Shown here in pieces: positions 3,001 to 51,013 of a stretch of 64,000 nucleotides of DNA. The notes below the pieces were generated by a model, which saw nothing but the letters and a program-made list of their open reading frames with translations, did not search any database and was not told where the DNA came from. Origin of the DNA: Akkermansia sp. (lineage in GTDB: Bacteria > Verrucomicrobiota > Verrucomicrobiia > Verrucomicrobiales > Akkermansiaceae). The stretch is from NCBI GenBank assembly GCA_030531305.1, contig JAUNNT010000002.1, positions 1 to 64,000 of the forward strand. Reading direction: 5' to 3'. Both the position numbers and the translations under genes were made by a program. Every line of letters begins with the position of its first letter. The first letter of the stretch is position 1.

Positions 3001-3621
3001 GGGCGCTACGCCCGCGGCTCGTGGACCCACACGCTTGTGGCCACCGTCGGCATGGCGGACACCAACCTGAAGCGCACGGTGGACTACGGCACGGGAAGCT
3101 ACGCCACGGAGTCCAGCTCTGACGGCACGGCCTACGGCGTGATGTACGAGGCCGGCTACGCCATCGCCCTCAACGAGAGCGCCAGCACCTGCCTGCAGCC
3201 CGTGTTCAACGTGAGCTACCGCCACAGCTCGCTGGACGGCTTCACCGAGACGGGCGACACGGATGCCGCCCTGCGCGGCGGTGACGCCGCATCGGATGTG
3301 GTCTCCATCGCCGTGGGCGCGCGCCTGCAGAGCATCGTGGGCACGAGCGTGTACAACCGCTCCTCCATCTTCGAGGGCCGCGTGCTGTTCAAGTTCGACG
3401 CCGGGGACCGCGACACCGCCATGCACAGCTCCTTCATGGACGTGCGCCGCGTGCAGGACGTGCGCAGCGCAGAGATGGGCTGCTTCGGCCTGGAGCTCGG
3501 CGCGGGCATCGTGGTGCCGGTGGCAGAGGACGGCGGTTCCTTCTTCTTCGATGTCACCGCGGAACTCCGCGACAAGTACACCGAGGTCAACGGAACAGCC
3601 GGATATAGGTACAACTTCTAA
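1..3621 (+). CDS. Autotransporter adhesin, 3' part (5' end outside window)
   Basis: The frame is open from base 1, so the start lies upstream. The passenger is a long Gly/Ser/Thr/Asn-rich parallel beta-solenoid of short strand repeats. A W-containing autotransporter-associated module (YVWVGVNENWSDAANW) lies around nt 1387-1435. From about nt 2770 to the end the sequence switches to alternating amphipathic strands (PFVNAWINAEGDYSKF onward) and finishes GYRYNF, with the terminal aromatic residue used by the BAM machinery. This is a type V autotransporter barrel that should sit in the outer membrane and expose the passenger. No catalytic motif was seen, so adhesion or a structural surface role is inference. 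The TAA stop is the first unit of a heptanucleotide repeat, followed by a strong hairpin terminator. Confidence 0.9.
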   Translation, partial: TTAINVTTINVSGATYTFTGGQNLNITNGISVTDSGVATFDKVAGELKNVYIAGTASKLTISSGDVTVNAFSSEGTFTTVGSLAIKSAVANGGSVVAGGNVTLASGSENVFGSLNATGKVTGASKLTVGGASAIGSVEGIGTLALNGGTLSLGNASGLANTQLGGALTLTGEAVNLGSVTMTNGSSISSSKVVVANGITVSGTGTVKGGATLQTASVGGTGTLAVEDGTVGIASGSTMSVSGVLDVKSGAHISNSGTLAVTNSGRVIAGNGVSLGTVDAKGAVELDGAAVSATGGSIAALDMGSGETLTVANDLALASTTGGNGGSLNVAGALTVGGAATIGNVTAGTLELTTAGTLTASGTLDAGTITLDRVSKTDHYLTAGGLSESTTAFVVDKALIEALNVSAGQIITLADLDTVHTGAANLTINGAKYITDTHDLGYHIAQDSVTKDIILIARNQESNYVWVGVNENWSDAANWSGGMVPDETSWVQFNGGEQSILLDQLVQTRRLTVSAGTHDTIYGDQNLLLSQSLEVDGNASLNVGDGSTETMVSAPEVQVTGELNVQANAFVDAEHTTIKGGALNVADGGSYFTGVVDMTEGGSLYTEGEASIAAEQLNGDSDSTVGGNVTIYGNGGRYSGGYDGAHISVVQDANATLYAGEGLTLHGDGTAKLLYTGNTAIDGVDADDLDIVLNDTTASSIGSTLILENASRMAAGSISFGMSAVDSAATIRSQRIPIILAADDFAVGDETTVVVSQDRIKDTGIAMAVWNDDYTQDLVLARVGADNTDTESVVLDGYLYNKYYKNARIEHGNLTVDMRDDFYTTISGAHTPAGISGAGMLDNAFVELNPQISNPNGDLAAVMTSLEYGTIPAEKVDSVLAAMSGTSHAAMGTAWSHDVDRQLRAIRNRTTSMGVGECVVNEDMPFVNAWINAEGDYSKFNNDGTLAGYKLSSWGGTFGVDVDCTNRLTMGLAVTAMNGDFTALGDDNAEGDLDRMYVSVFGRYARGSWTHTLVATVGMADTNLKRTVDYGTGSYATESSSDGTAYGVMYEAGYAIALNESASTCLQPVFNVSYRHSSLDGFTETGDTDAALRGGDAASDVVSIAVGARLQSIVGTSVYNRSSIFEGRVLFKFDAGDRDTAMHSSFMDVRRVQDVRSAEMGCFGLELGAGIVVPVAEDGGSFFFDVTAELRDKYTEVNGTAGYRYNF

Positions 3622-3647
3622 TTTACAATTTACGATTTTGTAAATTA
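3620..3647. repeat. Heptanucleotide AT-rich repeat overlapping the stop codon
   Basis: AATTTAC occurs twice, then GATTTTG and TAAATTA, a strict 7-bp period. The TAA stop of the autotransporter falls in the first unit. The trailing TTAGGCGGCGG resembles the bases after the heptads at 19208, which suggests a shared dispersed element. Confidence 0.7.
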
Positions 3648-3668
3648 GGCGGCGGTGCCGCGGATTTC

Positions 3669-18842: not shown

Positions 18843-19199
18843 ATGCCCACACCCGATGAGGAATACGAAATGGCCGCTGCCGAATTCAAGGCCGGAAACG
18901 CCGCACAAGGCGCGCAGCACCTCCGCAACGCCGCCTTCAACGGCCACTCCGCCGCCCAGGACCAGCTCGCACGCGTCTATTTCGCCCAGCTCAAATCCCG
19001 CGCCGACGTGGCGGACCTGGAGGCCGCCGCCCAATCCGGCGATCACGTCGCCCTCTTCGTCCTCGCCATGTGCCTGATAGAAGGGCGTCTCATCGACAAG
19101 GACACCGAAAAAGCCGTCACCGCCCTCCAACACGCCGCCGCACAAGGCAACCGCATGGCCCAAGCCATGCTCAATTTACAATTGACGATTGACGATTGA
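18843..19199 (+). CDS. Short Sel1-like repeat protein with a repeat-encoded C-terminus
   Basis: 118 residues without a signal peptide. Helical Sel1/TPR-like hairpins are visible: EEYEMAAAEFKAGNAAQGAQ, NGHSAAQDQLARVYF, SGDHVALFVLAMCLIEG and AAAQGNRMAQAML. The last nine codons, including the stop, are made of the AATTTAC/GATTGAC heptads, giving NLQLTIDD. The original C-terminus was probably altered by arrival or expansion of that repeat. It starts 5 bp after the GH20 gene and likely shares its mRNA. Confidence 0.7.
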   Translation: MPTPDEEYEMAAAEFKAGNAAQGAQHLRNAAFNGHSAAQDQLARVYFAQLKSRADVADLEAAAQSGDHVALFVLAMCLIEGRLIDKDTEKAVTALQHAAAQGNRMAQAMLNLQLTIDD

Positions 19200-19334
19200 C
19201 AATTTGTAAGTTAGGCTCCGCCGCCGCTAAAGCTATGGCGTGACACGGCGCGGCGAACTTTCCAAATTGCTTGCCTCGGCGTAGCCCCGCAGGGGCGAAG
19301 ACGGGTAAATCGTAAATTGTAGATTGTAAATACA
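19173..19334. repeat. 162-bp element with inverted heptanucleotide arrays at both ends
   Basis: The left array (19173-19214) holds AATTTAC, AATTGAC, GATTGAC, GATTGAC, AATTTGT and AAGTTAG. The right array (19307-19334) holds AAATCGT, AAATTGT, AGATTGT and AAATACA, which is the same motif family on the opposite strand. The interior is GC-rich and non-coding. A second element of almost the same length and layout lies at 27545-27708, on the other side of the giant surface-protein gene. Confidence 0.7.
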
Positions 19335-19335
19335 A

Positions 19336-19358
19336 CTACAGTATTCCCAATACTGTAG
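19336..19358. promoter_or_regulatory. Perfect inverted repeat, candidate operator upstream of the giant gene
   Basis: CTACAGTATT, CCC, AATACTGTAG. The half-site GGGAATACTGTA recurs at 19502-19513, inside the spacer and -10 of the promoter of the giant gene. Shared half-sites suggest one regulator binding at both places. The rest of 19359-19488 shows only AT-rich and CGG-containing sequence. Confidence 0.5.
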
Positions 19359-19488
19359 GACTGTTGGAGCGCGCAACGCGTTGAAAATGCCCCTTCCGCC
19401 GCCCACAGTGCCCCGTAGCGGAATTTGGCGGATTTTCGCGGAATTTGCCGCAACCGATAAAATTTTCAACCTTTTTGCAAAATTCGGC

Positions 19489-19517
19489 TTGCATAAGGTT
19501 TGGGAATACTGTACACT
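19489..19517 (+). promoter_or_regulatory. Promoter of the giant surface-protein gene
   Basis: TTGCAT (19489-19494), 17-bp spacer, TACACT (19512-19517). The leader would be about 76 nt and contains a small hairpin CGCGTG (19530-19535) / CACGCG (19543-19548). No clear Shine-Dalgarno precedes the ATG. Confidence 0.5.
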
Positions 19518-19599
19518 CCCCGCACATCTCGCGTGTGTGTAGCACGCGGAAACCTCTTCGACATCAACCGAAAATCAACCTCGAACCTAAGCAACCATC

Positions 19600-22500
19600 A
19601 TGAAACTTAGACTTCCCAACAAGCTCCAAGCAGCCCTCGTCGCTGCCATCGCTTCCGTGTCCTTCACGACACTCAGCACCGGCACCATCGCCGTTGCTAC
19701 CGGCGCCGCCCTCCTCGCAGGGCAGCGGGCACAGGCATTCGAGGATGCCACGTGGACGTTTGAGAGCAGCATGTCTGCCGACACGAAGATTTCCGGCCCC
19801 GCCCTCACCTATGAATGGAAAGGCAACGGCAGCGCCACATACGTGGATTCCTACATGGTTAAGGGTACACAGGTTGGCAACTATTGGCTGGATGCCGATT
19901 TGGGCAAGGCCATCACCTTTGCGGACGGCCAGTACATCAAGGTTGGTACGAACCCCTACTGGACTTCGGGAGCAGGCAACCTGAACACCGGCAACAATGA
20001 GCATAACAGCTACACTGTGATGGCTTGGGTGAAGTTGGATTCCACCTCTGGCGAGCAGGAATTTTTCGGCACGGGCGACGGTGTGGAAAAAGGTATGGGA
20101 TTTGGTCTCAATGGCGGGAAGGCCGACATTCTGACCAAGTGGATAGCGCACAACAATTATGATGCCCTGACCGTCAGTGCCGGGCAGTGGGTGAACGTTG
20201 CGTTCACGTACGACATGGATTCCAACACGGGTAAGGCGTACATCAACGGCGAGCTCGTAGGGAGCAAGACGATTGGGAACTCCAACATGCCCGGCGGTGA
20301 ATGTTCCTATATCGGCGCCAGCGCCGCGAATAACAACCGCGACAATTTCGCCGGTCAGATTGCCGAGTTGAAGGTTTTGAGCGGAGCGTACGACCAGGCG
20401 CAAATCATGGCGGCAGCCCACTTGACCAGCACGGCCCCTGCCCCTGTGGAAGGCTTGGTGTGGGCGGGAAACGCCACCAGCAGCGAGTGGAACACTACGG
20501 ACCAAAATTGGAGTAAAGGAGCAGAATCGGCTGCCTTCACCACAGGAGACAACGTTGCATTCGACAACACAGCCGATGTCAAGAAGGTAACTCTCGGCGA
20601 CAACATCACGGCAGGTGTCGTCACAGTGAACGCTGCCGCCTACGAGTTCGCCATGGAAGGCAATACTCTGACTGCCACCAAGCTTGCGCTGAGCGGCGAC
20701 AACGCCTCCCTCTCCCTGACGGGTGCGGGCACGGTGTCCGCCGGCAGCATCAGCGCGAGCGACAAGACCATCAACATTGGCAAGGACGTGGTACTGCAGG
20801 GCGGTTCAACCGCCGCGGCCACGCTGGCGGGCACCGGCACGTACGCGCTGGAAAACGGTTCATACGCCAAGGGTTCGATTAATCTCGGCGGCAACTGGAC
20901 TGGCACGGTGCGCGTCACCGACCTCGACGCCAACGGATCCCGCGACATGAGCGGGTTGCGCACCTCCCTGTCCACGCTGGAGCTGAAAGGCTTCAACGGC
21001 TGGATGAGCAATTGGACGGGCACGCTCGACTACAACATCAAGCTGACCAACGGCAGCGCCGGCTATGGCTGGAGGAACGGAGCCTTCGGCAACGAGGGCA
21101 ATGTAATGAACAATACCGGCATCTGGTCCGGCAACGGCAAGTTCGTGGCGGCGGTCAACAGCGGTCGCTATATGGACTACACCTACAGCGGCAACATCTC
21201 CGCGTGGACCGGTGAATTCGAGTTGCTCAACGGCACCACGAAGCTGAAGTTCTCCTCCAACGCCACCGAGGTGAAGGCGAAAATCACCCAAACGGGCGGC
21301 GCTTTGAAGCTTTACGCGGACACGGACGTCGCCTTCTCGAATACCATAACCGTCACTTCCCTGGACGTGACCGCCAACAAGCAGGCCACGTTCGGCGGCA
21401 CCACAAACATTGCCAACGGCGTGACGCTGAACAGCGGGTCCACGCTGGTGAACACCGGTGCCATGACCCTGGGCGGCACGATCGTATTCGGTGAGAACTC
21501 CATCCAGAACAACGGCAGCGGCACCATCAACTTCGGCAGCAACATCCACTTCGATATCACCAACCTGGCTTTCTCCGAGTTGGAGGGGGTCACCACCTAC
21601 ACGCTCTTCTCCGGTAACGCGGTTGACTTGAGCGGGTACAACACCAACAACATCACCGTGGCGGGCGGCACCGCCGGCAAGGAATGGACGTTCGGCGAGG
21701 ACGGCACCATCTCCTTCCAGCTCTCCCGCTCCGTTGACTGGAACAACGGGGCCGACACCGGAAAGTGGAACTACACGGATGCCAACTGGAGCGAGGGCCG
21801 CAAGTTTGAATCCGGCATGGTTGCCAACTTCTTCACGAATGCGGAGGCTACCGTCTCCGAGAACGTGGTGGCGGGCGGCATTGTGGTGGGCAAGGCGGAT
21901 GCAGAGGCTCCCACCGTGACCATCGCTGCGGAAGGCGGCAGCACCCTGACTGCCGGTTCCCTGGATGTGGTGAAGGGCACCCTCACCACCGGCACGGCAA
22001 TCCTGGGCCTGGAGAGCGTGAACATTGCCTCCGGCACCACGTGGAACATCAACGCCGACCAGACCTTGGACGCGGGCGCGTACGCGGGCGCCATTAGCGT
22101 GGGAGCCGGCCACACGGTCACGCTGAGCGATGCGGGCAACGCAAGCAGCCTGCTCAAGGGCATCTCGGGCGACGGCAACATCACCCTCACGGTGAACACG
22201 GATTTAGAGGGTGTGCTGAATGACAAGGAGCATGCCACCCGCACACAGGCGACCGGCACGCTGACGCTCCAGGGCATAACCCTCAGGCTCGGCAAGATGA
22301 GCACGAGCGGGGGCTACCAGAAATGGTATGTGGACCTGAGTTCCTTTGACACGATTGCCCTGGATGGCGGCACCCTCTGGGTACACTCCCCCGAGACGGT
22401 GGTGAACAACGTGACGGTCGACAACCACGCCGGCACCATCCACGTCCGGGATTCAGACAACGACCAGCAGGCAGGCAAACCGGACACACTCAAGATTGCC

Positions 22501-25500
22501 GGCAAGCTCACCCTGAATGCAAACCTGACCATCGAAAGCACATGGAAAAACAAGGTAAGCATTGCTGAGCTGGCGGGCGCCGGCAAGCTCACCCTCTCTG
22601 GCGGTGACAACCAGGTGATCAACATCGGCGGCGGTACCGTGGGTTCCATGGAGTTGACCACCGCGCAAACCCATGCAACGGTCACAGGAAACCTGACGGT
22701 ATCCTCCGGAGCTTTGACGCTTAGCAACGGCACGCTGAATGTCACCGGCTCCGTCACGGTGTCCTCCGGAGATTTGACGCTTAGCCACGGCACGCTGGAT
22801 GTCGCCGGCTCCGTCGCGGTGAACAAGGCCTTGGATCTCAGCGTTGGCGGCGGTTCCAACGCCACCCTGAACATCAAGGGCGGCGGCACGGTGACGCTGG
22901 CGAACACCGGCAACGCCTCCTTCTGGGGTGACGACGGCTCCCACCTGAACCTGGAGGAGGGCGGCACGCTGGCGCTGGACAAGTACGGCCTGAGCATCAC
23001 CGGCCTTGCCGGCGGCGGCTCCATCACCTTCCCCAACAACACCCAGTACGGCATCGGTAAAGACGGTATCACCATCACGGGCGCAAACGTGACCGTGACG
23101 GCAGCAGGCACGGGCGCAGTCACCATCGGCAACAAGCTCACCAACAGCAAGCTGACCACCGGCTCCCATGAGGTGACGCTGAGCCACGCGGAGGACTCCC
23201 TGGTGGGCCTGACCATCAGCAACGGCGGCTCCTTCACGCTCAACAACACGAGCCCGGTGGATGTCGCCGACATCGACATTGAGGCCGGCGGCACGCTTGT
23301 GCTGGGGGCAGAGAACCTGATTAGCGGCGAGTACACCGTGGACGCAGGGACGCTGAACCTGGGTGCCGGAAGGCAGAGCTCCCTCACCACCCTGACCATC
23401 AACGACGGCGGCATGGTGATTTCCTCCCGTCAGGGGCAGGCATCCGGCTTCCTGGCGAACAACGGCACGGTCGTTATCAACGGTAGCGGTGTCCTCAAGT
23501 TCACCGGCAACAACGATGCCCTGGGCTGGGGCGGCGGCCACGTTGCATCCGTAACCCTGAACGGCACGGATGCCGAGCATGTGGCCACGCTTGACCTGTC
23601 CGCGCAGAGCGGCAGCGAGACCATGGCGTCCAACCTGGTCCTCAACGGTTACTCCCTTATCACGAAATCCTCCAACAACCGCGGCTTCAACACCTATGGC
23701 GGCAGCATCACCGTCACCGGCACGGAGAACGAGATTGAGAGGATGGAGGTCCGCGCCAACGCCACCATCAACGTGGTGGGCGCGGCGGACACACTCTCCG
23801 TGGGCGTCATGGCCCTTGGCGCGGACGGCGGCAAGGAGCTGACCAAGACGGGCGCGGGCACGCTCACCTTCACGGAGAGCGCCGCTTCCACGAACCTGAC
23901 CGTCAGCGAAGGCGCCGTTGTGAGCAAGGGCACCGCCACGCTGGGGGCGCTCAACCTGCAGGGCGGCAGCTACACGGTGGAAGCCGGAAGCACAACCGTC
24001 ACCGGTCTCACCACCATGACGAACAGCGCCACGCTGGCGAACGCCGGGGAGCTCACGCTCAACAGCCTCACCATGGGTGCGGCCAACACGCTCACCAACA
24101 CGGGCGCGCTCCAACTGAACGGCACGGTGCTGTTCGGCACGGCGGGCATTGCCAACAATGGTACGGGCTCGGTCGCATTCGCGGACGACATCATCTTCAA
24201 CATCTCCCAACTGCAGGAGGGTGAGGGCCACACCTACACCCTCTTCACGGGCGACAGCGCGGTGGACCTCACCGCCCTCACCGCCACCGCGGCGGACCAC
24301 ATCACCGGCGTCACCGTGACCGGGCGCGCCTGGACCTTCTCCAACAACGGCCAGCTCAGCTATGAGATCCTTTCCCGCAACCTCGTGTGGAACGGCGGCG
24401 CGGGCACCTGGACCACCGACACGGAGACCACCCCGTGGCACGTCGACGGTTCCGAGGAGCCGGTCTCCTTCGCCACGGGCGACGCGGCCCGCTTCGCGGC
24501 CTCCGGGACATCCGCAGAGGTGACGCTGGGCTCGAATATCACCGCCGCCGGCATCACGGTTGACGCCGGGGCCATGGTGACCGTGAATCCTGAGGGACAC
24601 ACCCTGAGCGCGGACGTGGCGAACATCGACGGCGTGCTGACCTCGGCACTGGCGACGCACTCCGTCACCATCGGGGAAAGCGGCGTGTGGAACATGGCCG
24701 GCGGCACCCTGAACGTGGCCGATGTCTCCATCTCCAACGAGGGCCTCATCCACCTGATGGACGGCGCCAAGGTGACGGCCACCAAGGACAACGTGTCCAC
24801 CCTGGGAGCGGTGAGCGCGGAGGGAACCGGCACGCTGGAAGTCGGCGGTACCGGAGCCTACACCTTCGCCGGGCAGGAGAGCGACCCCTTCGCCGGGCGC
24901 CTGATCTACAACATCGGCAGCACCGGAGGGCACGACAGCAGCATCCGCCTCTCCAACTTCGAGGGCACGCTGGAAATCCGCGGGCGCGTGAACTACAGCA
25001 ACTCACAGTTCGGCAACATGTCCAAGCTGGTGTTCAACGGAGACCGCTCCAGCAACACCACGGGGCTCTGGAACACCGGAGTCGCCAACATTGGCGTGGA
25101 CCTGGATATCATCGGCGACCAGCTGGTGGACTTCTATGCCTCCAACACCATCAACGTGAACGGCAACATCAACGCCGCCGGCGTGCAGGGCCACCTGGGC
25201 AAGGAGAATGACCAGACCATGAACCTGAACGGCATCACCAACCTGCTCAGCCTGAGGGTCAAGAACGGCACGGTGAACCTGAAGGACGGCACCATCGGCA
25301 CGATTGTCGTCAACGGCGGCAAGACGGTCAACTTCAACGGCGCGCTGGCGGTGACGGACTCCCTGGAGGCCAACGTGAACACCAACCTGACGGTGGGCGC
25401 TGAAGGCGTGCTGGACATTGCGGGCATTTCCATTGCCGGTACGGCTCAGGGCACCACCATCACCACCTCCGCCAACAACTCGGTGTACAGCCTGGGGAAT

Positions 25501-27126
25501 GAGAGCTACACCATCACCAACGCCGACATCACCGCCAAGCAGGATGTCGAGATTGCCAACAAGCTCACCAACTCCATGGTGTACACCGATGACAAAGCCG
25601 TCACCCTCTCCAACATCGACAACGTCGTTGCCGGTGCCACGGTGGGTCTCGGCAGCTTCGGCATGACCGGCGGCACCCTGAGCAACGCCATCACCAACGC
25701 CGGCACCGTCAGCCTCACCGAAGTCACCCTGGGTGGCGGCTTCAGCGAGGTTGCGGAAGATGTGCACTTCGACCTCAACGGCGATGTGGTGACCGATATG
25801 AACGCCAACTACTACCTGGGCGTTGAAGAGTACGTGCAGGTGGTGAACGGCGGCACCATCACCGGTGGTTCCACCGCCCGGTGGGCCGACCATAGCTATG
25901 GTGTCCAGTCCAACGGCCGCATCATCCTTGAAGAAGCCTTAGCCGACTACACCACCTACTTCGTACAGTCCGGTGATGTTTCCGTTGGCGAGGTCCTTGA
26001 CCTCCACGAGCTGACCAACACCTTCTATGTCTCCGGCGGCACGCTGTATATAGATGGTGCATATTCCAACCTCAACATCACGGTGACGGACTCCGGCACC
26101 ATCAGCGGCTACACCACCCCGGCCGAGGTGACCATCGTCCCCGAGGCGGAAGTCACGTTCGAGGAGGGCATCGAGGATACGAACAACGGCGTGACGTTCA
26201 GCTCCAGTGAGGGCGGCGTCGTTGTCAAGAACACCGACGGCCCTGCCGGCGGCGAAGCTTTCAAGTACACCATTGATCAGACGTCCGCCCAGGTGACGGC
26301 CGATGTGCTCAGGGTGAATTCCGAAGAGGATGTGACCATTGCCAACCAGCTTGATGTGACCACCATCGTGAACGAAGCTGCGGACGGCGAAAGCACGCTG
26401 AAGCTGACGCATTCCTCCGCGGCGGAGAACGTGGAGAACGTGCGTGCCATCCGAGGTGACATCGCGTTCGCGAACGTTGAAGAGGAAGCCTCCATCGAGC
26501 TCAAGGAGCTGACCATCGGCACGAACAAGACGGTGGGCTTCAACACCTCCGAGAATGTGTTCGACGAGACCCACGAAGCAACGGTCGTCATCGCCGCCGC
26601 CACCGCTCCCGAAGCGCAGGATGGCGGCGTGTTGAACGTGCTTGAAGGCGCCACGCTGAACGCCAACCTGGTGATGGAGGCCGGCTCCACGCTGGACGTG
26701 AGCTACGCGCAGGACAGTCACGGTCTCATCATGGGTTCCAGCGTCACGCTGAAGGAAGGGGTCTTGCTGCAGGACAGCTTGCACGTGGGACCCAGTCAGG
26801 ATATGAACGCCTTCCTGTTCGATTACTTCAAGGGAGAAGGCGCCCCCGAGTACTACTACCTGTACGACAGCGTGGAGGAGCTCTACATCCAGCAGGGTGC
26901 CGAGGTCAAGCGGTTTACCCAGCTTGATTTCGTGAATTGGCGCAACTTCGACATGGATGCCAGCCGCGTCTTCACCGAGCTGGACGAGAACACCTACGCG
27001 CTGGTGTACAACTGGGATCCCATCCACAAGAACGTGGTGGCCCTGCGCTTGCTTCCGGAGCCGACCACAGGCACGCTGTCCTTGCTTGCGCTCTGCGCGC
27101 TGGCCGCGCGCAGGCGCCGCAAGTGA
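19600..27126 (+). CDS. Giant LamG/beta-solenoid surface protein with PEP-CTERM-like end
   Basis: 2,508 residues. A signal peptide (MKLRLPNKLQAALVAAIASV, with likely cleavage near QRAQA) is followed by a LamG/concanavalin-like domain (about 40-285, with WVNVAFTYD and KAYINGELVGS). Then comes a very long beta-solenoid with autotransporter-associated strand modules that begin with W-rich segments at about 287, 712 and 1595. The segment FNISQLQEGEGHTYTLFTGD near 1540 repeats an earlier FDITNL...TYTLFSGN near 650, showing a large internal duplication. It ends LLPEPTTGTLSLLALCALAA plus RRRRK, a PEP-CTERM-like sorting tag, and has no outer-membrane barrel. Surface attachment through an exosortase-type system is inferred. 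The LamG domain suggests glycan binding. Confidence 0.88.
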   Translation: MKLRLPNKLQAALVAAIASVSFTTLSTGTIAVATGAALLAGQRAQAFEDATWTFESSMSADTKISGPALTYEWKGNGSATYVDSYMVKGTQVGNYWLDADLGKAITFADGQYIKVGTNPYWTSGAGNLNTGNNEHNSYTVMAWVKLDSTSGEQEFFGTGDGVEKGMGFGLNGGKADILTKWIAHNNYDALTVSAGQWVNVAFTYDMDSNTGKAYINGELVGSKTIGNSNMPGGECSYIGASAANNNRDNFAGQIAELKVLSGAYDQAQIMAAAHLTSTAPAPVEGLVWAGNATSSEWNTTDQNWSKGAESAAFTTGDNVAFDNTADVKKVTLGDNITAGVVTVNAAAYEFAMEGNTLTATKLALSGDNASLSLTGAGTVSAGSISASDKTINIGKDVVLQGGSTAAATLAGTGTYALENGSYAKGSINLGGNWTGTVRVTDLDANGSRDMSGLRTSLSTLELKGFNGWMSNWTGTLDYNIKLTNGSAGYGWRNGAFGNEGNVMNNTGIWSGNGKFVAAVNSGRYMDYTYSGNISAWTGEFELLNGTTKLKFSSNATEVKAKITQTGGALKLYADTDVAFSNTITVTSLDVTANKQATFGGTTNIANGVTLNSGSTLVNTGAMTLGGTIVFGENSIQNNGSGTINFGSNIHFDITNLAFSELEGVTTYTLFSGNAVDLSGYNTNNITVAGGTAGKEWTFGEDGTISFQLSRSVDWNNGADTGKWNYTDANWSEGRKFESGMVANFFTNAEATVSENVVAGGIVVGKADAEAPTVTIAAEGGSTLTAGSLDVVKGTLTTGTAILGLESVNIASGTTWNINADQTLDAGAYAGAISVGAGHTVTLSDAGNASSLLKGISGDGNITLTVNTDLEGVLNDKEHATRTQATGTLTLQGITLRLGKMSTSGGYQKWYVDLSSFDTIALDGGTLWVHSPETVVNNVTVDNHAGTIHVRDSDNDQQAGKPDTLKIAGKLTLNANLTIESTWKNKVSIAELAGAGKLTLSGGDNQVINIGGGTVGSMELTTAQTHATVTGNLTVSSGALTLSNGTLNVTGSVTVSSGDLTLSHGTLDVAGSVAVNKALDLSVGGGSNATLNIKGGGTVTLANTGNASFWGDDGSHLNLEEGGTLALDKYGLSITGLAGGGSITFPNNTQYGIGKDGITITGANVTVTAAGTGAVTIGNKLTNSKLTTGSHEVTLSHAEDSLVGLTISNGGSFTLNNTSPVDVADIDIEAGGTLVLGAENLISGEYTVDAGTLNLGAGRQSSLTTLTINDGGMVISSRQGQASGFLANNGTVVINGSGVLKFTGNNDALGWGGGHVASVTLNGTDAEHVATLDLSAQSGSETMASNLVLNGYSLITKSSNNRGFNTYGGSITVTGTENEIERMEVRANATINVVGAADTLSVGVMALGADGGKELTKTGAGTLTFTESAASTNLTVSEGAVVSKGTATLGALNLQGGSYTVEAGSTTVTGLTTMTNSATLANAGELTLNSLTMGAANTLTNTGALQLNGTVLFGTAGIANNGTGSVAFADDIIFNISQLQEGEGHTYTLFTGDSAVDLTALTATAADHITGVTVTGRAWTFSNNGQLSYEILSRNLVWNGGAGTWTTDTETTPWHVDGSEEPVSFATGDAARFAASGTSAEVTLGSNITAAGITVDAGAMVTVNPEGHTLSADVANIDGVLTSALATHSVTIGESGVWNMAGGTLNVADVSISNEGLIHLMDGAKVTATKDNVSTLGAVSAEGTGTLEVGGTGAYTFAGQESDPFAGRLIYNIGSTGGHDSSIRLSNFEGTLEIRGRVNYSNSQFGNMSKLVFNGDRSSNTTGLWNTGVANIGVDLDIIGDQLVDFYASNTINVNGNINAAGVQGHLGKENDQTMNLNGITNLLSLRVKNGTVNLKDGTIGTIVVNGGKTVNFNGALAVTDSLEANVNTNLTVGAEGVLDIAGISIAGTAQGTTITTSANNSVYSLGNESYTITNADITAKQDVEIANKLTNSMVYTDDKAVTLSNIDNVVAGATVGLGSFGMTGGTLSNAITNAGTVSLTEVTLGGGFSEVAEDVHFDLNGDVVTDMNANYYLGVEEYVQVVNGGTITGGSTARWADHSYGVQSNGRIILEEALADYTTYFVQSGDVSVGEVLDLHELTNTFYVSGGTLYIDGAYSNLNITVTDSGTISGYTTPAEVTIVPEAEVTFEEGIEDTNNGVTFSSSEGGVVVKNTDGPAGGEAFKYTIDQTSAQVTADVLRVNSEEDVTIANQLDVTTIVNEAADGESTLKLTHSSAAENVENVRAIRGDIAFANVEEEASIELKELTIGTNKTVGFNTSENVFDETHEATVVIAAATAPEAQDGGVLNVLEGATLNANLVMEAGSTLDVSYAQDSHGLIMGSSVTLKEGVLLQDSLHVGPSQDMNAFLFDYFKGEGAPEYYYLYDSVEELYIQQGAEVKRFTQLDFVNWRNFDMDASRVFTELDENTYALVYNWDPIHKNVVALRLLPEPTTGTLSLLALCALAARRRRK
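22696..22815 (+). repeat. Recent 60-bp tandem duplication inside the giant gene
   Basis: Two in-frame 60-bp units (22696-22755 and 22756-22815) differ at only a few bases and encode TVSSGALTLSNGTLNVTGSV and TVSSGDLTLSHGTLDVAGSV. This shows that the solenoid grows by in-frame slippage or recombination. Confidence 0.85.
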
Positions 27127-27130
27127 TTTA

Positions 27131-27158
27131 CTAGGTACTATGTACTAGGTACTATTTG
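27131..27158. repeat. CTAGGTA/CTATGTA heptads just after the giant gene
   Basis: CTAGGTA, CTATGTA, CTAGGTA, CTATTTG in strict 7-bp register, beginning 4 bp after the TGA stop. The units are a different sequence from AATTTAC but share period and position at a gene end. Confidence 0.7.
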
Positions 27159-27192
27159 AAAATTCGGCGCGCTTTGCGCGCGGAGATTGAGC

Positions 27193-27219
27193 AAGGCCCA
27201 GCCGGTACGGCTGGGCCTT
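27193..27219 (+). terminator. Intrinsic terminator of the giant gene
   Basis: Perfect 12-bp stem AAGGCCCAGCCG, loop GTA, CGGCTGGGCCTT, then TCTTGCT. Confidence 0.8.
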
Positions 27220-27299
27220 CTTGCTACAAACTGCCCATGCGGCGGGAGCGGGGGAGGCGGAGGATGAGCCGGGCGAAAACGCGGCGCATCCAGCGGGGC

Positions 27300-27494
27300 T
27301 CAATGGAGGGGAGCGCTTTCATCGTCGGTGGTCAGGGTGTCGCCGCACTCGTAGTAGAGGAGGCTCATCACGTTGAGGGGGTAGCCCAGGGAGCGCTCGG
27401 TTAGCTCTCCCGCCAGCTGCAGGGAACCCGCGGGACACCCGCGGAACAGCGTGCGGTTGAAATCCCCGATGGTGGTGTTTTCTTCATCGTCCAT
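27300..27494 (-). CDS. Small hypothetical protein, possibly 5'-truncated by a repeat
   Basis: 64 residues from the ATG at 27494 (MDDEENTTIGDFNRTLFRGC onward), with no family recognised. The same frame stays open upstream through LLPNAHGRPGVIVR and runs into the heptad array at 27545-27579, so an earlier start may have been cut off. Composition is protein-like (mixed acidic and hydrophobic) rather than the Arg/Pro-rich pattern of shadow frames. The flanks 27220-27299 and 27495-27544 show nothing else. Confidence 0.35.
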   Translation of the reverse strand: MDDEENTTIGDFNRTLFRGCPAGSLQLAGELTERSLGYPLNVMSLLYYECGDTLTTDDESAPLH

Positions 27495-27544
27495 GCGGAC
27501 AATGACACCCGGGCGACCGTGAGCGTTGGGTAACAGGGAGGAGT

Positions 27545-27708
27545 AATTTACAATTTACAATTGACGATTTACAATTGTATAGATTAGTGCGCCTGGCGGC
27601 GCAATACAACTCAGCCCATCTGGCAGAATGCCAGATGGGCTTTGAAATTGCCGCGCGCGGAGCGTGCGCTCTCTTTCAAAATCGTCAATTGTCAATCGTA
27701 AATTGTCA
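27545..27708. repeat. 164-bp element with inverted heptanucleotide arrays at both ends
   Basis: The left array (27545-27579) holds AATTTAC, AATTTAC, AATTGAC, GATTTAC and AATTGTA. The right array (27681-27708) holds ATCGTCA, ATTGTCA, ATCGTAA and ATTGTCA, the same family on the opposite strand. The interior carries a perfect hairpin. The right array contains the stop codon of the sialate esterase (TCA, 27706-27708). Confidence 0.75.
27613..27641. terminator. Hairpin terminator inside the repeat element
   Basis: Perfect 13-bp stem AGCCCATCTGGCA, loop GAA, TGCCAGATGGGCT, with TTTG next on the plus strand and CAAAG on the other side. It lies downstream of the minus-strand esterase and can serve that gene. 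Confidence 0.65.
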
Positions 27709-29211
27709 ATTCTTCTTGCCTTTTTTGGACTTCTTGTCCATGCCGGCGTAGGGAACGGCGGGGAGCTTGGCGTCGTTGACGAGGTTGGGCTCGAAGAATA
27801 CCTTCCAGCCGTAGCGTACCTTGACAGGCTTCTTCACGCCGGGGGCGGAGAGCTCCACGGTGTCGCCCTTGAGGGTGGCGGTGGCGTCCTCGAACTTGCC
27901 GTTGCTGCCGGCAATCTCAAATCCGGTGGGGGCGGAGCCGTTGGTGGTGGTGAGGCCCTTGGCGTGCTTGAAGGTGACCTTGAGGGTGCTGCCTGCGGGC
28001 TTGGCGGAGGCCACCTGCGGGCCGCTGTACTCCACGTCCTTGCCGTAAACCTTGGCGGCGGCCACATAGGCGAGGCGCTGGCCCACCTCGGTCTTGCGTG
28101 CGGGGTGGACATCGCTGTTGGTGGAGCCGAGGTCCACGGTGGCGACGGTGTAGACGCCGGGGATGTTGTCCTGGGACTGCTGCTGGACCTCGCGGAACTC
28201 CGGCCAGTAGGCGCGCAGCGGGGTATTGTCGTTGATGCGTGGCAGCTGCACCTGGATCCACGGCATGTCGGGCTTTTTGAACTCCGCGCGCCAGCCGCCG
28301 ATGAGGTCGGCCAGCAGCTCGTAGTTCTGCTTCATGTCCTGGATTTCCGCATCGGATTCACCCTGGTACCAGATGACGCCCTTCATGGGGAAGTCCACCC
28401 AGTCCTGCACGCCGGACTTGAAGAGGTACCCGGGCTTGTAGGGGTGCGGCATGTTCAGGTCGCCGCCGATGTTCTTGCGGGCGCGTCCGCGCACCCAGTC
28501 GCTCATGTAGCGGCTGTCCAACCACTTGGCGCTCATGCAGTCGTGGTACTTCTTCTTGAGCACGGTCTCGGGAATCCAGGCCATCATCTCGGAGCCGCCG
28601 AGGGAGGCGTGGACGATGCCCACGGGGACGCCCAGCTGCTTCTGAAGCTCCTGGGCGAAGTACCAGGCCACGGCGGACATGCGGGGCGTGGTTTCCGGGG
28701 CGCTGACGGCCCACTTGCCCACGTACATGGCGTTGTTGTTGAGGATATCCTTCTCCTTGGCGCCGTAGGTGGAGTTGCCGGTGTGCACTTGGGGTTCCGC
28801 ATGGAAGAAGCGGATGTCCTTGTTGCCGGAGGCGGGGATGGCCGTGCCCTTGTCCGCCATCTCGTCCATGCGGCGCAGCATGTTGGACTGGCCGGAGGCG
28901 AACCAAACCTCGCCCACCACCACGTCCTTCAGCTCGGCGGAGTCGCCGCCCTGCTGCACGGTGAGGCTCTCGCCGTTGGCGTTGGCCTTCATGGCGGGCA
29001 GCACGGCCTCCCAGCGCTTGCCGCTCTTCTTGGCCTTCACGGTGGTGCCGCCGAAGGTGAGGGTGACGTCGCCGCCGCCGGTGGCCTCGCCGCGCACGGG
29101 GATATCCTGCCCCTGCTGGAGCACCATGTGGTCGCCGAACGTGTGGTCGAAACTCACCGCCGCCCAGCACGTGGCGGAGCCCAACAGCATGCCTATCAAT
29201 GCAGATTTCAT
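27706..29211 (-). CDS. Secreted sialate O-acetylesterase (SGNH-type)
   Basis: 501 residues with a signal peptide (MKSALIGMLLGSATCWA). It has FGDHMVLQQGQDIPVRG near the start, the catalytic Ser in WFASGQSNM (Ser109), GVIWYQGESD in the middle and the Asp-His pair in STNSDVHPA. These match the SIAE family, which removes acetyl esters from sialic acids so that sialidases can work. The C-terminus is Lys-rich (KKSKKGKKN), and its last codon and stop lie in the heptad array. The ATG at 29211 is chosen from the promoter: TTGCCA-17-TACGCT ends 7 bp before it. Confidence 0.92.
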   Translation of the reverse strand: MKSALIGMLLGSATCWAAVSFDHTFGDHMVLQQGQDIPVRGEATGGGDVTLTFGGTTVKAKKSGKRWEAVLPAMKANANGESLTVQQGGDSAELKDVVVGEVWFASGQSNMLRRMDEMADKGTAIPASGNKDIRFFHAEPQVHTGNSTYGAKEKDILNNNAMYVGKWAVSAPETTPRMSAVAWYFAQELQKQLGVPVGIVHASLGGSEMMAWIPETVLKKKYHDCMSAKWLDSRYMSDWVRGRARKNIGGDLNMPHPYKPGYLFKSGVQDWVDFPMKGVIWYQGESDAEIQDMKQNYELLADLIGGWRAEFKKPDMPWIQVQLPRINDNTPLRAYWPEFREVQQQSQDNIPGVYTVATVDLGSTNSDVHPARKTEVGQRLAYVAAAKVYGKDVEYSGPQVASAKPAGSTLKVTFKHAKGLTTTNGSAPTGFEIAGSNGKFEDATATLKGDTVELSAPGVKKPVKVRYGWKVFFEPNLVNDAKLPAVPYAGMDKKSKKGKKN

Positions 29212-31388: not shown

Positions 31389-31451
31389 ATTAGGATTAGG
31401 AATTAAGATTAGGAAAGGGGACGCTGTTTCATTCTTCCTAATCCTAATTCC
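31389..31451. repeat. Inverted ATTAGG hexamer arrays forming a long hairpin
   Basis: ATTAGG, ATTAGG, AATTAAG, ATTAGG on the plus strand face TTCCTAATCCTAATTCC. The arms 31399-31415 and 31435-31451 pair over 17 bp with one mismatch, around a 19-nt GC-containing loop. It lies between the CorC-type gene and rnz and may act as a terminator. It uses the hexamer seen at 50972-51013. Confidence 0.7.
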
Positions 31452-50971: not shown

Positions 50972-50976
<5 letters not shown>

Positions 50977-51013
50977 GATTAAGATTAAGATTAGGATTAG
51001 GATTAGGATTATG
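50972..51013. repeat. Hexamer array joining miaB stop to the next start codon
   Basis: Seven units in strict 6-bp register: ATTAGG, ATTAAG, ATTAAG, ATTAGG, ATTAGG, ATTAGG, ATTATG. The first unit holds the miaB stop TAG and the last holds the ATG of the following gene. The AGGA within the units is the only possible Shine-Dalgarno. The array fills the whole intergenic space. Confidence 0.85.

Follow-up and report, generated by a model that had tools for sequence, protein, structure and literature searches.

The window analyzed here is a 64,000-nucleotide stretch (positions 1 to 64,000 of the forward strand) of contig JAUNNT010000002.1 (contig C85), from a metagenome-assembled genome (MAG) of Akkermansia sp. 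(GCA_030531305.1; 2.3 Mb in 109 contigs) whose closest named relatives are other Akkermansia MAGs, including two from horse faeces. Two elements of 160 and 167 bp, each built from AT-rich heptads and an inverted counterpart, lie on the two sides of a 7.5-kb gene for a large surface-type protein (19600-27126). We consider it probable (roughly 0.6) that these elements are inverted pairs of a half-element of about 70 bp belonging to a non-coding dispersed family that resembles repetitive extragenic palindromic (REP) sequences and miniature inverted-repeat transposable elements (MITEs), and that this family has spread by insertion and non-allelic gene conversion. The heptad motif (AWTTKACRATTKACRAT, with at most 2 mismatches) has 319 matches in the genome versus 4 for the reversed pattern, so the bracketing of the surface-protein gene, to which the initial annotation had attached special meaning, is incidental.

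Copy number and anatomy of the heptad family

Array statistics cover 987 kb of the genome. This portion holds 77 arrays of the heptad RATTKAC, 61 of which (79%) have four units, with 8 of two, 6 of three, and 2 of five units. The identity of each unit depends on its position, with RATTTAC in unit 1, AATTKAC or AATCTAC in unit 2, RATTKAC in unit 3, and mostly GATTKAC in unit 4, followed by AATTTGG, and the 61 four-unit arrays comprise 40 distinct sequences. The RATTKAC array is thus a polymorphic module of fixed length rather than a microsatellite that slips freely. AT-rich runs of period 7 number 105 in the same 987 kb, against 0 to 2 at periods of 5, 8, 10, 11, and 13, and AT-rich heptad or hexad arrays occupy 93 of the 355 intergenic gaps that measure 60 bp or more (about a quarter). 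The family in this genome amounts to well over 100 copies and comes in several heptad dialects, described below.

On the 3' side of the heptads, the half-element continues with AATTTKG, a short AT-rich tail (consensus approximately GAAAGTTMG), and a GC hairpin, whose start is in most cases 12-17 bases past the array. Hairpins were tested singly, against shuffled sequences and against gene ends free of arrays. Such a hairpin follows 50 of 69 arrays, compared with 21.6 in shuffles, and is built from 28 different stems; in the comparison with gene ends, a hairpin follows 48/63 arrays versus 80/192 array-free ends (p = 2e-6). RNAalifold recovered zero consensus pairs from the aligned elements because the hairpin sequences differ and misalign. 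Arrays also come in pairs: five of the seven close pairs in the 987 kb are convergent and span 100, 102, 133, 160, and 167 bp in total.

Placement at stop codons

The arrays lie mostly at the ends of genes. A same-strand open reading frame (ORF) ends near 57 of the 77 arrays, and 17 arrays start at exactly -2, such that the last two bases of a TAA or TGA stop codon are the first two bases of the array (T|RA); genes were called with a simple codon-usage script, which may have misplaced a few arrays relative to their stop codons. Among the arrays that overlap an ORF end, 17/27 are at -2, whereas about 1/12 would be expected from random reading into the array (p = 1.7e-12, with 1/12 taken as a simple expectation). 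Most of the other arrays near ORF ends start no more than 14 bases past the stop codon. A second group of arrays precedes genes of the opposite orientation, and here too the array end faces the gene.

Heptad elements in the window

Within the window, the pattern AATTKACRATTKAC (at most 3 mismatches) has 21 matches compared with 5.5 +/- 2.3 in dinucleotide shuffles, and none of 100 shuffles reached 21. The paired elements with inverted partners that had been proposed are real, and they do sit on either side of the surface-protein gene; the positions first given were nearly right, with end coordinates off by 2-3 bp. The features are as follows.

19173-19200, plus strand: left array of element 1, four units, AATTTAC AATTGAC GATTGAC GATTGAC; the alignment to the sister genome G031 ends exactly at 19172.
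19201-19244, plus strand: conserved tail of element 1, AATTTGTAAGTTAGG, then a GC-rich REP-like insert (CTCCGCCGCCGCTAAAGCTATGGCGTGAC, REP-C) that replaces the hairpin; similar REP-C copies lie near the array at L045:12798.
19245-19332, minus strand: inverted half of element 1, consisting of the tail, a nested REP-B at 19270-19304 (reverse of CCGTCTTCGC...GAGGCAAG), and four inverted units at 19305-19332.
27545-27612, plus strand: left half of element 2, AATTTAC AATTTAC AATTGAC GATTTAC (27545-27572), tail, and GC hairpin TGCGCC-TGG-CGGCGCA; the same site is occupied in G031.
27613-27645, no strand assigned: central terminator-like hairpin of element 2, AGCCCATCTGGC-AGAAT-GCCAGATGGGCTTTG, read from the sequence, separating the two halves.
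27646-27711, minus strand: right half of element 2, AATTGAC AATTTAC GATTGAC AATTGAC (27711-27684), GATTTTG tail, and GC hairpin; the array is identical in G031.
27125-27221, plus strand: half-element at the 3' end of the surface-protein gene, in the TAKGTAC dialect, T|GATTTAC TAGGTAC TATGTAC TAGGTAC TATTTG (heptads at 27125-27152), with a GC hairpin at about 27167-27184 and a terminator-like hairpin at 27193-27221.
3620-3660, plus strand: a fifth, partial array, a short half-element in which two units are full; its first heptad shares bases with the stop codon of an ORF that ends at 3621.

Element 1 is thus a convergent pair of half-elements carrying two nested REP-like inserts, while element 2 consists of two half-elements, each with its own hairpin, flanking one central terminator-like hairpin. 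The Sel1/TPR-like ORF upstream of element 1 enters the left array and has its stop codon within it (19197-19199), and the stop codon of the SASA-esterase gene (27706-27708) lies within the first heptad of the right half of element 2.

The surface protein contains a LamG-like domain (PF13385), and its gene carries a 60-bp in-frame repeat in two copies (22696-22821). Its C-terminal tail (PEPTTGTLSLLAL..., then arginines and a lysine) is common to several proteins whose genes have a heptad array at the end, and its homologue in G031 appears to be about half as long. Between the terminator of this gene and element 2 lies a remnant-like minus-strand ORF (27216-27544), which may be a gene shortened by element 2. 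An Rfam match to ylbH at 27186-27296 scored 26 bits against a cut-off of 50, and this sub-threshold hit was taken as chance. Elsewhere in the window, hexad and 13-mer arrays at 50972-51011 and 31389-31415 (ATTAGG x 6.7; ATTAAGATTAGGA) represent another AT-rich array dialect.

Turnover between sister genomes

Comparisons were made with G031 (about 95% identical), G001, and G003, at one genome per species. Many arrays are identical between genomes, some differ by one 7-bp unit, and several are absent. Among twelve orthologous arrays of the same length, the variable heptad positions 1 and 5 differ at 13/120 sites and the other five at 2/288, compared with 61/1692 in the upstream flank, a count that omits the flanks of three indel-containing pairs. 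In one array, 6 of the 10 free positions differ although its flanks are 97-98% identical. At two orthologous sites, RATTKAC and TAKGTAC heptads are exchanged for one another with the 28-bp register unchanged: one is L279:4073 compared with G001, and the other is the 3' end of the surface-protein gene, where the G031 ortholog has AATTTAC-type heptads in place of the TAKGTAC dialect.

At element 1, the alignment of the window to G031 stops at 19172 and resumes at 19326, and the upstream Sel1-like gene, which ends in ...MLGQM-D/G-stop in both G031 and G003, has had its last codons replaced by the array in the present genome. The G031 site has no heptads and instead holds an insertion sequence (IS) 200-like (Y1/RAYT) transposase gene with its own inverted palindromic flanks (PF01797, 2.3e-17; L141/L142, G031:C74, approximately 19790-20128), so that the earlier statement of no transposase nearby, which is uncontradicted in the window, does not extend to the orthologous site. 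A REP cluster occupies this site in G003, and the 3' end of the Sel1-like gene looks like an insertion hotspot. Positions 19244-19331 of element 1 (88 bp) also match G031 L142:4533-4620 with 100% identity; in G031 this stretch is found 3' of the surface-protein gene, and the genes of the two genomes are about 95% identical.

Nested repeats also enter the arrays. In G031, the 31-bp REP-B has inserted cleanly at the boundary between heptads, following KAC. REPs of 31-36 bp (CCGTCTTCGC...GCTACGCCGAGGCAAGC) occur at L142, L161, L169, and many other loci, where they insert precisely after KAC between heptads as well as in terminator loops; they begin with CGTC, as does the CGTC-tagged REP class.

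Heptad dialects and spread in the genus

Across the genus, the number of pattern matches per genome ranges from 0 to 438. The present genome has 35 matches to TAKGTAC and 51 to GGATTTN, and hexads such as ATTAGG are present too. G019 has 259 TAKGTAC matches with the same geometry as the half-elements described here, and the paired elements of this genome are known from the match list alone: among the matches listed, close pairs are convergent and most are spaced 64 or 128-130 bp start to start, like discrete palindromic units. G025 and G026 carry arrays of TATTTAC, GATTTAC, and GAATTAC with an identical tail and hairpin, and the arrays of G005 are homogeneous. Arrays are absent or nearly so in G004, G015, and G017, genus members assembled in one to three contigs each, and in the other genera of the order that were searched.

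Many contigs of G019 open with a minus-strand array and close with a plus-strand array, as if the assembly had broken within palindromes. Many contigs of the present genome, G019, and other MAGs end inside heptad arrays, and the heptad repeats probably fragment Akkermansia MAG assemblies.

Origin and possible function of the arrays

In the model that we favor, the mobile unit would be the half-element, with four RATTKAC heptads, the first usually at or just past a stop codon, followed by AATTTKG, the AT-rich tail, and the GC hairpin 12-17 bases on. Insertion as well as non-allelic gene conversion would let copies spread among intergenic sites and overwrite each other. The T|RA of stop codons would be the preferred target, and selection would remove insertions at other places in genes. 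Any function would probably be that of an element of the 3' untranslated region (UTR), supplying an AU-rich linker and a hairpin after the stop codon. Several results weigh against this model. None of 54 comparisons to sister genomes revealed a clean empty site and target-site duplication, missing arrays usually being accompanied by a differing flank. No mover was found, RAYT being the sole candidate examined. Movement and conversion of copies are deduced from pairs of species, each represented by one genome. Terminators are not significantly enriched beside arrays (21/63 versus 52/192 array-free gene ends), and a terminator role for the arrays was rejected on that ground; moreover, several arrays lie upstream of genes with the array end toward the start codon, which a pure 3'-UTR role does not explain.

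It is possible, if unlikely, that the arrays are instead selected RNA or DNA sites: the four heptads after the stop codon would then serve as a protein-binding site or an AU-rich 3'-UTR signal, and selection rather than a mobile element would have produced and kept the arrays. The fixed number of four, the invariant ATT/AC core with two free positions, the position-dependent units, the docking, and the fixed spacing to a sequence-variable hairpin would all suit such sites, as would the retention of geometry where dialects differ. A sequence-specific binder would not tolerate the swapping of little-related dialects at one site, however, and arrays are missing from many genes and from several Akkermansia species, some arrays stand upstream of genes, and 88 bp including an arm have been duplicated between sites. 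Ordinary microsatellites, arising as chance heptads and expanded by polymerase slippage with no underlying element, appear a rather improbable source. Among long simple repeats, heptads are reported to be the commonest class in most bacteria rich in repeats (PMC4679880), and exact one-unit differences between species are what slippage would leave, yet the arrays lack the broad spread of lengths expected of it, and the position-dependent units, conserved tail and hairpin, convergent pairs, and several dialects on one anatomy are foreign to it. A free microsatellite was rejected for the fixed number and position-dependent identity of the units, and on the same grounds the initial description of the elements as built from microsatellites is only partly right.

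Mobilization of the heptad elements by the RAYT/IS200-like transposases of the genus is very unlikely. RAYT genes (PF01797) number 2, 5, 3, and 3 in the four sisters (two in the present genome). In G031, a RAYT gene occupies the site of element 1, and one of those in the present genome (G000:C4) lies between inverted heptad arrays. Yet the RAYT units end in different palindromes of their own, the heptads beside the RAYT of the present genome belong to the ends of neighboring genes, and array-rich G019, G025, and G026 have no Y1/RAYT (PF01797) match. As these three genomes are rich in arrays, RAYT is not needed to maintain the heptad family, and it was rejected as the mover.

The initial annotation had also proposed that recombination between the paired elements inverts or deletes the surface-protein gene. 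Two inverted pairs do flank this gene, the genes on either side of it have different neighbors in G001 and G003, and the gene is shorter in G031. Its orientation in G031 is nevertheless the same as in the present genome, with no inversion in this closest sister, and the element 1 site there is free of heptads. Arrays are found everywhere in the genome, their arms are just 28 bp and imperfect, and synteny breaks relative to G001 are not enriched at arrays (25/32 array-bearing gaps broken versus 54/75 gaps without arrays, p = 0.63). Elements 1 and 2 are thus unlikely to be a switch for the surface-protein gene; we regard such a role as extremely improbable, and it was rejected on the G031 orientation and the statistics of synteny breaks. 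The search of the genome and its relatives for heptad arrays with inverted partners, which had been suggested as a check, did find convergent pairs, with arrays located genome-wide.

Relation to known repeats and significance

Bacterial MITEs are short, non-coding, palindromic, and dispersed. The heptad elements share with them terminal inverted repeats, dispersal, and presence or absence between close genomes, and the 88 bp duplicated at a second site is also in keeping with the suggestion that they are MITE-like, which is partly supported; they may differ in one respect, as neither a clean target-site duplication nor a parent transposon or full-length related element was found. REP sequences and their inverted doublets, REPINs (PMC3116915), together with GTAG/CGTC-tagged REPs (PMC3733652), offer a dispersal model for palindromic doublets and are similar in being short, non-autonomous, high-copy palindromes with hairpins downstream of genes; the nested REP-B also begins with CGTC, like the CGTC-tagged REPs. 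REPs have no heptad array, however, and REPINs accompany RAYTs, whereas heptad arrays are abundant in RAYT-free species. The GTAG/GGAG-tagged palindrome of 20-40 bp typical of REPINs is lacking in the heptad elements, whose conserved part is the array and tail, with stems that vary. The family is also similar to the TAACTGA heptads, direct repeats found upstream of genes in Beggiatoaceae, Cyanobacteria, and Bacteroidetes (MacGregor, PMC4679880), which are likewise intergenic, exceed 100 sets per genome, are patchily spread among species, and have no known mover.

The closest likeness in geometry is to the GGGAATC heptads of Xanthomonas (Rehm et al. 2015, PMC4692102), which form about 185 arrays per genome with four units preferred and 70-75 convergent pairs. 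They are found near stop codons when on the sense strand and upstream of genes when on the antisense strand. Arrays lie between the same gene pairs in two Xanthomonas species, with differing length and sequence, and the regions are not unstable; GGGAATC and GGGGA(C/T)T heptads occur in Xanthomonas and Nostoc, and the number four in the GGGAATC heptads has been linked to G-quadruplexes (PMC4692102). The Akkermansia arrays agree in the period of 7, the preference for four units, the convergent pairs, and the placement near stop codons. They differ from the Xanthomonas and Nostoc heptads in having several dialects per genome, exact T|RA docking, a GC hairpin at a constant distance, and the exchange of dialects at orthologous sites. 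In addition, while the Xanthomonas units are G-rich, GG and CC are absent from tandem RATTKAC in every register, so that it can form neither a quadruplex nor an i-motif; the four-unit number and placement in Akkermansia therefore need a reason other than quadruplexes. We found no description of heptad arrays in the open-access literature on Akkermansia tandem repeats.

To the question of why bacterial intergenic repeats are so often built of 7-base units, and why of four, the published answer is G-quadruplexes, based on examples rich in G. That answer can be tested directly on AT-rich heptads, which agree in copy number, orientation, and placement. Tentatively, Akkermansia, Xanthomonas, and Nostoc may share a process that writes or swaps 28-bp four-heptad modules at gene ends in interchangeable dialects, keeping the geometry (7 x 4, docked at the stop codon, with polarity away from the gene) and not the sequence, in which case the quadruplex explanation would be wrong or incomplete. 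For the annotation of Akkermansia genomes, the heptad family should be recognized as a repeat and not read as a gene-specific switch.

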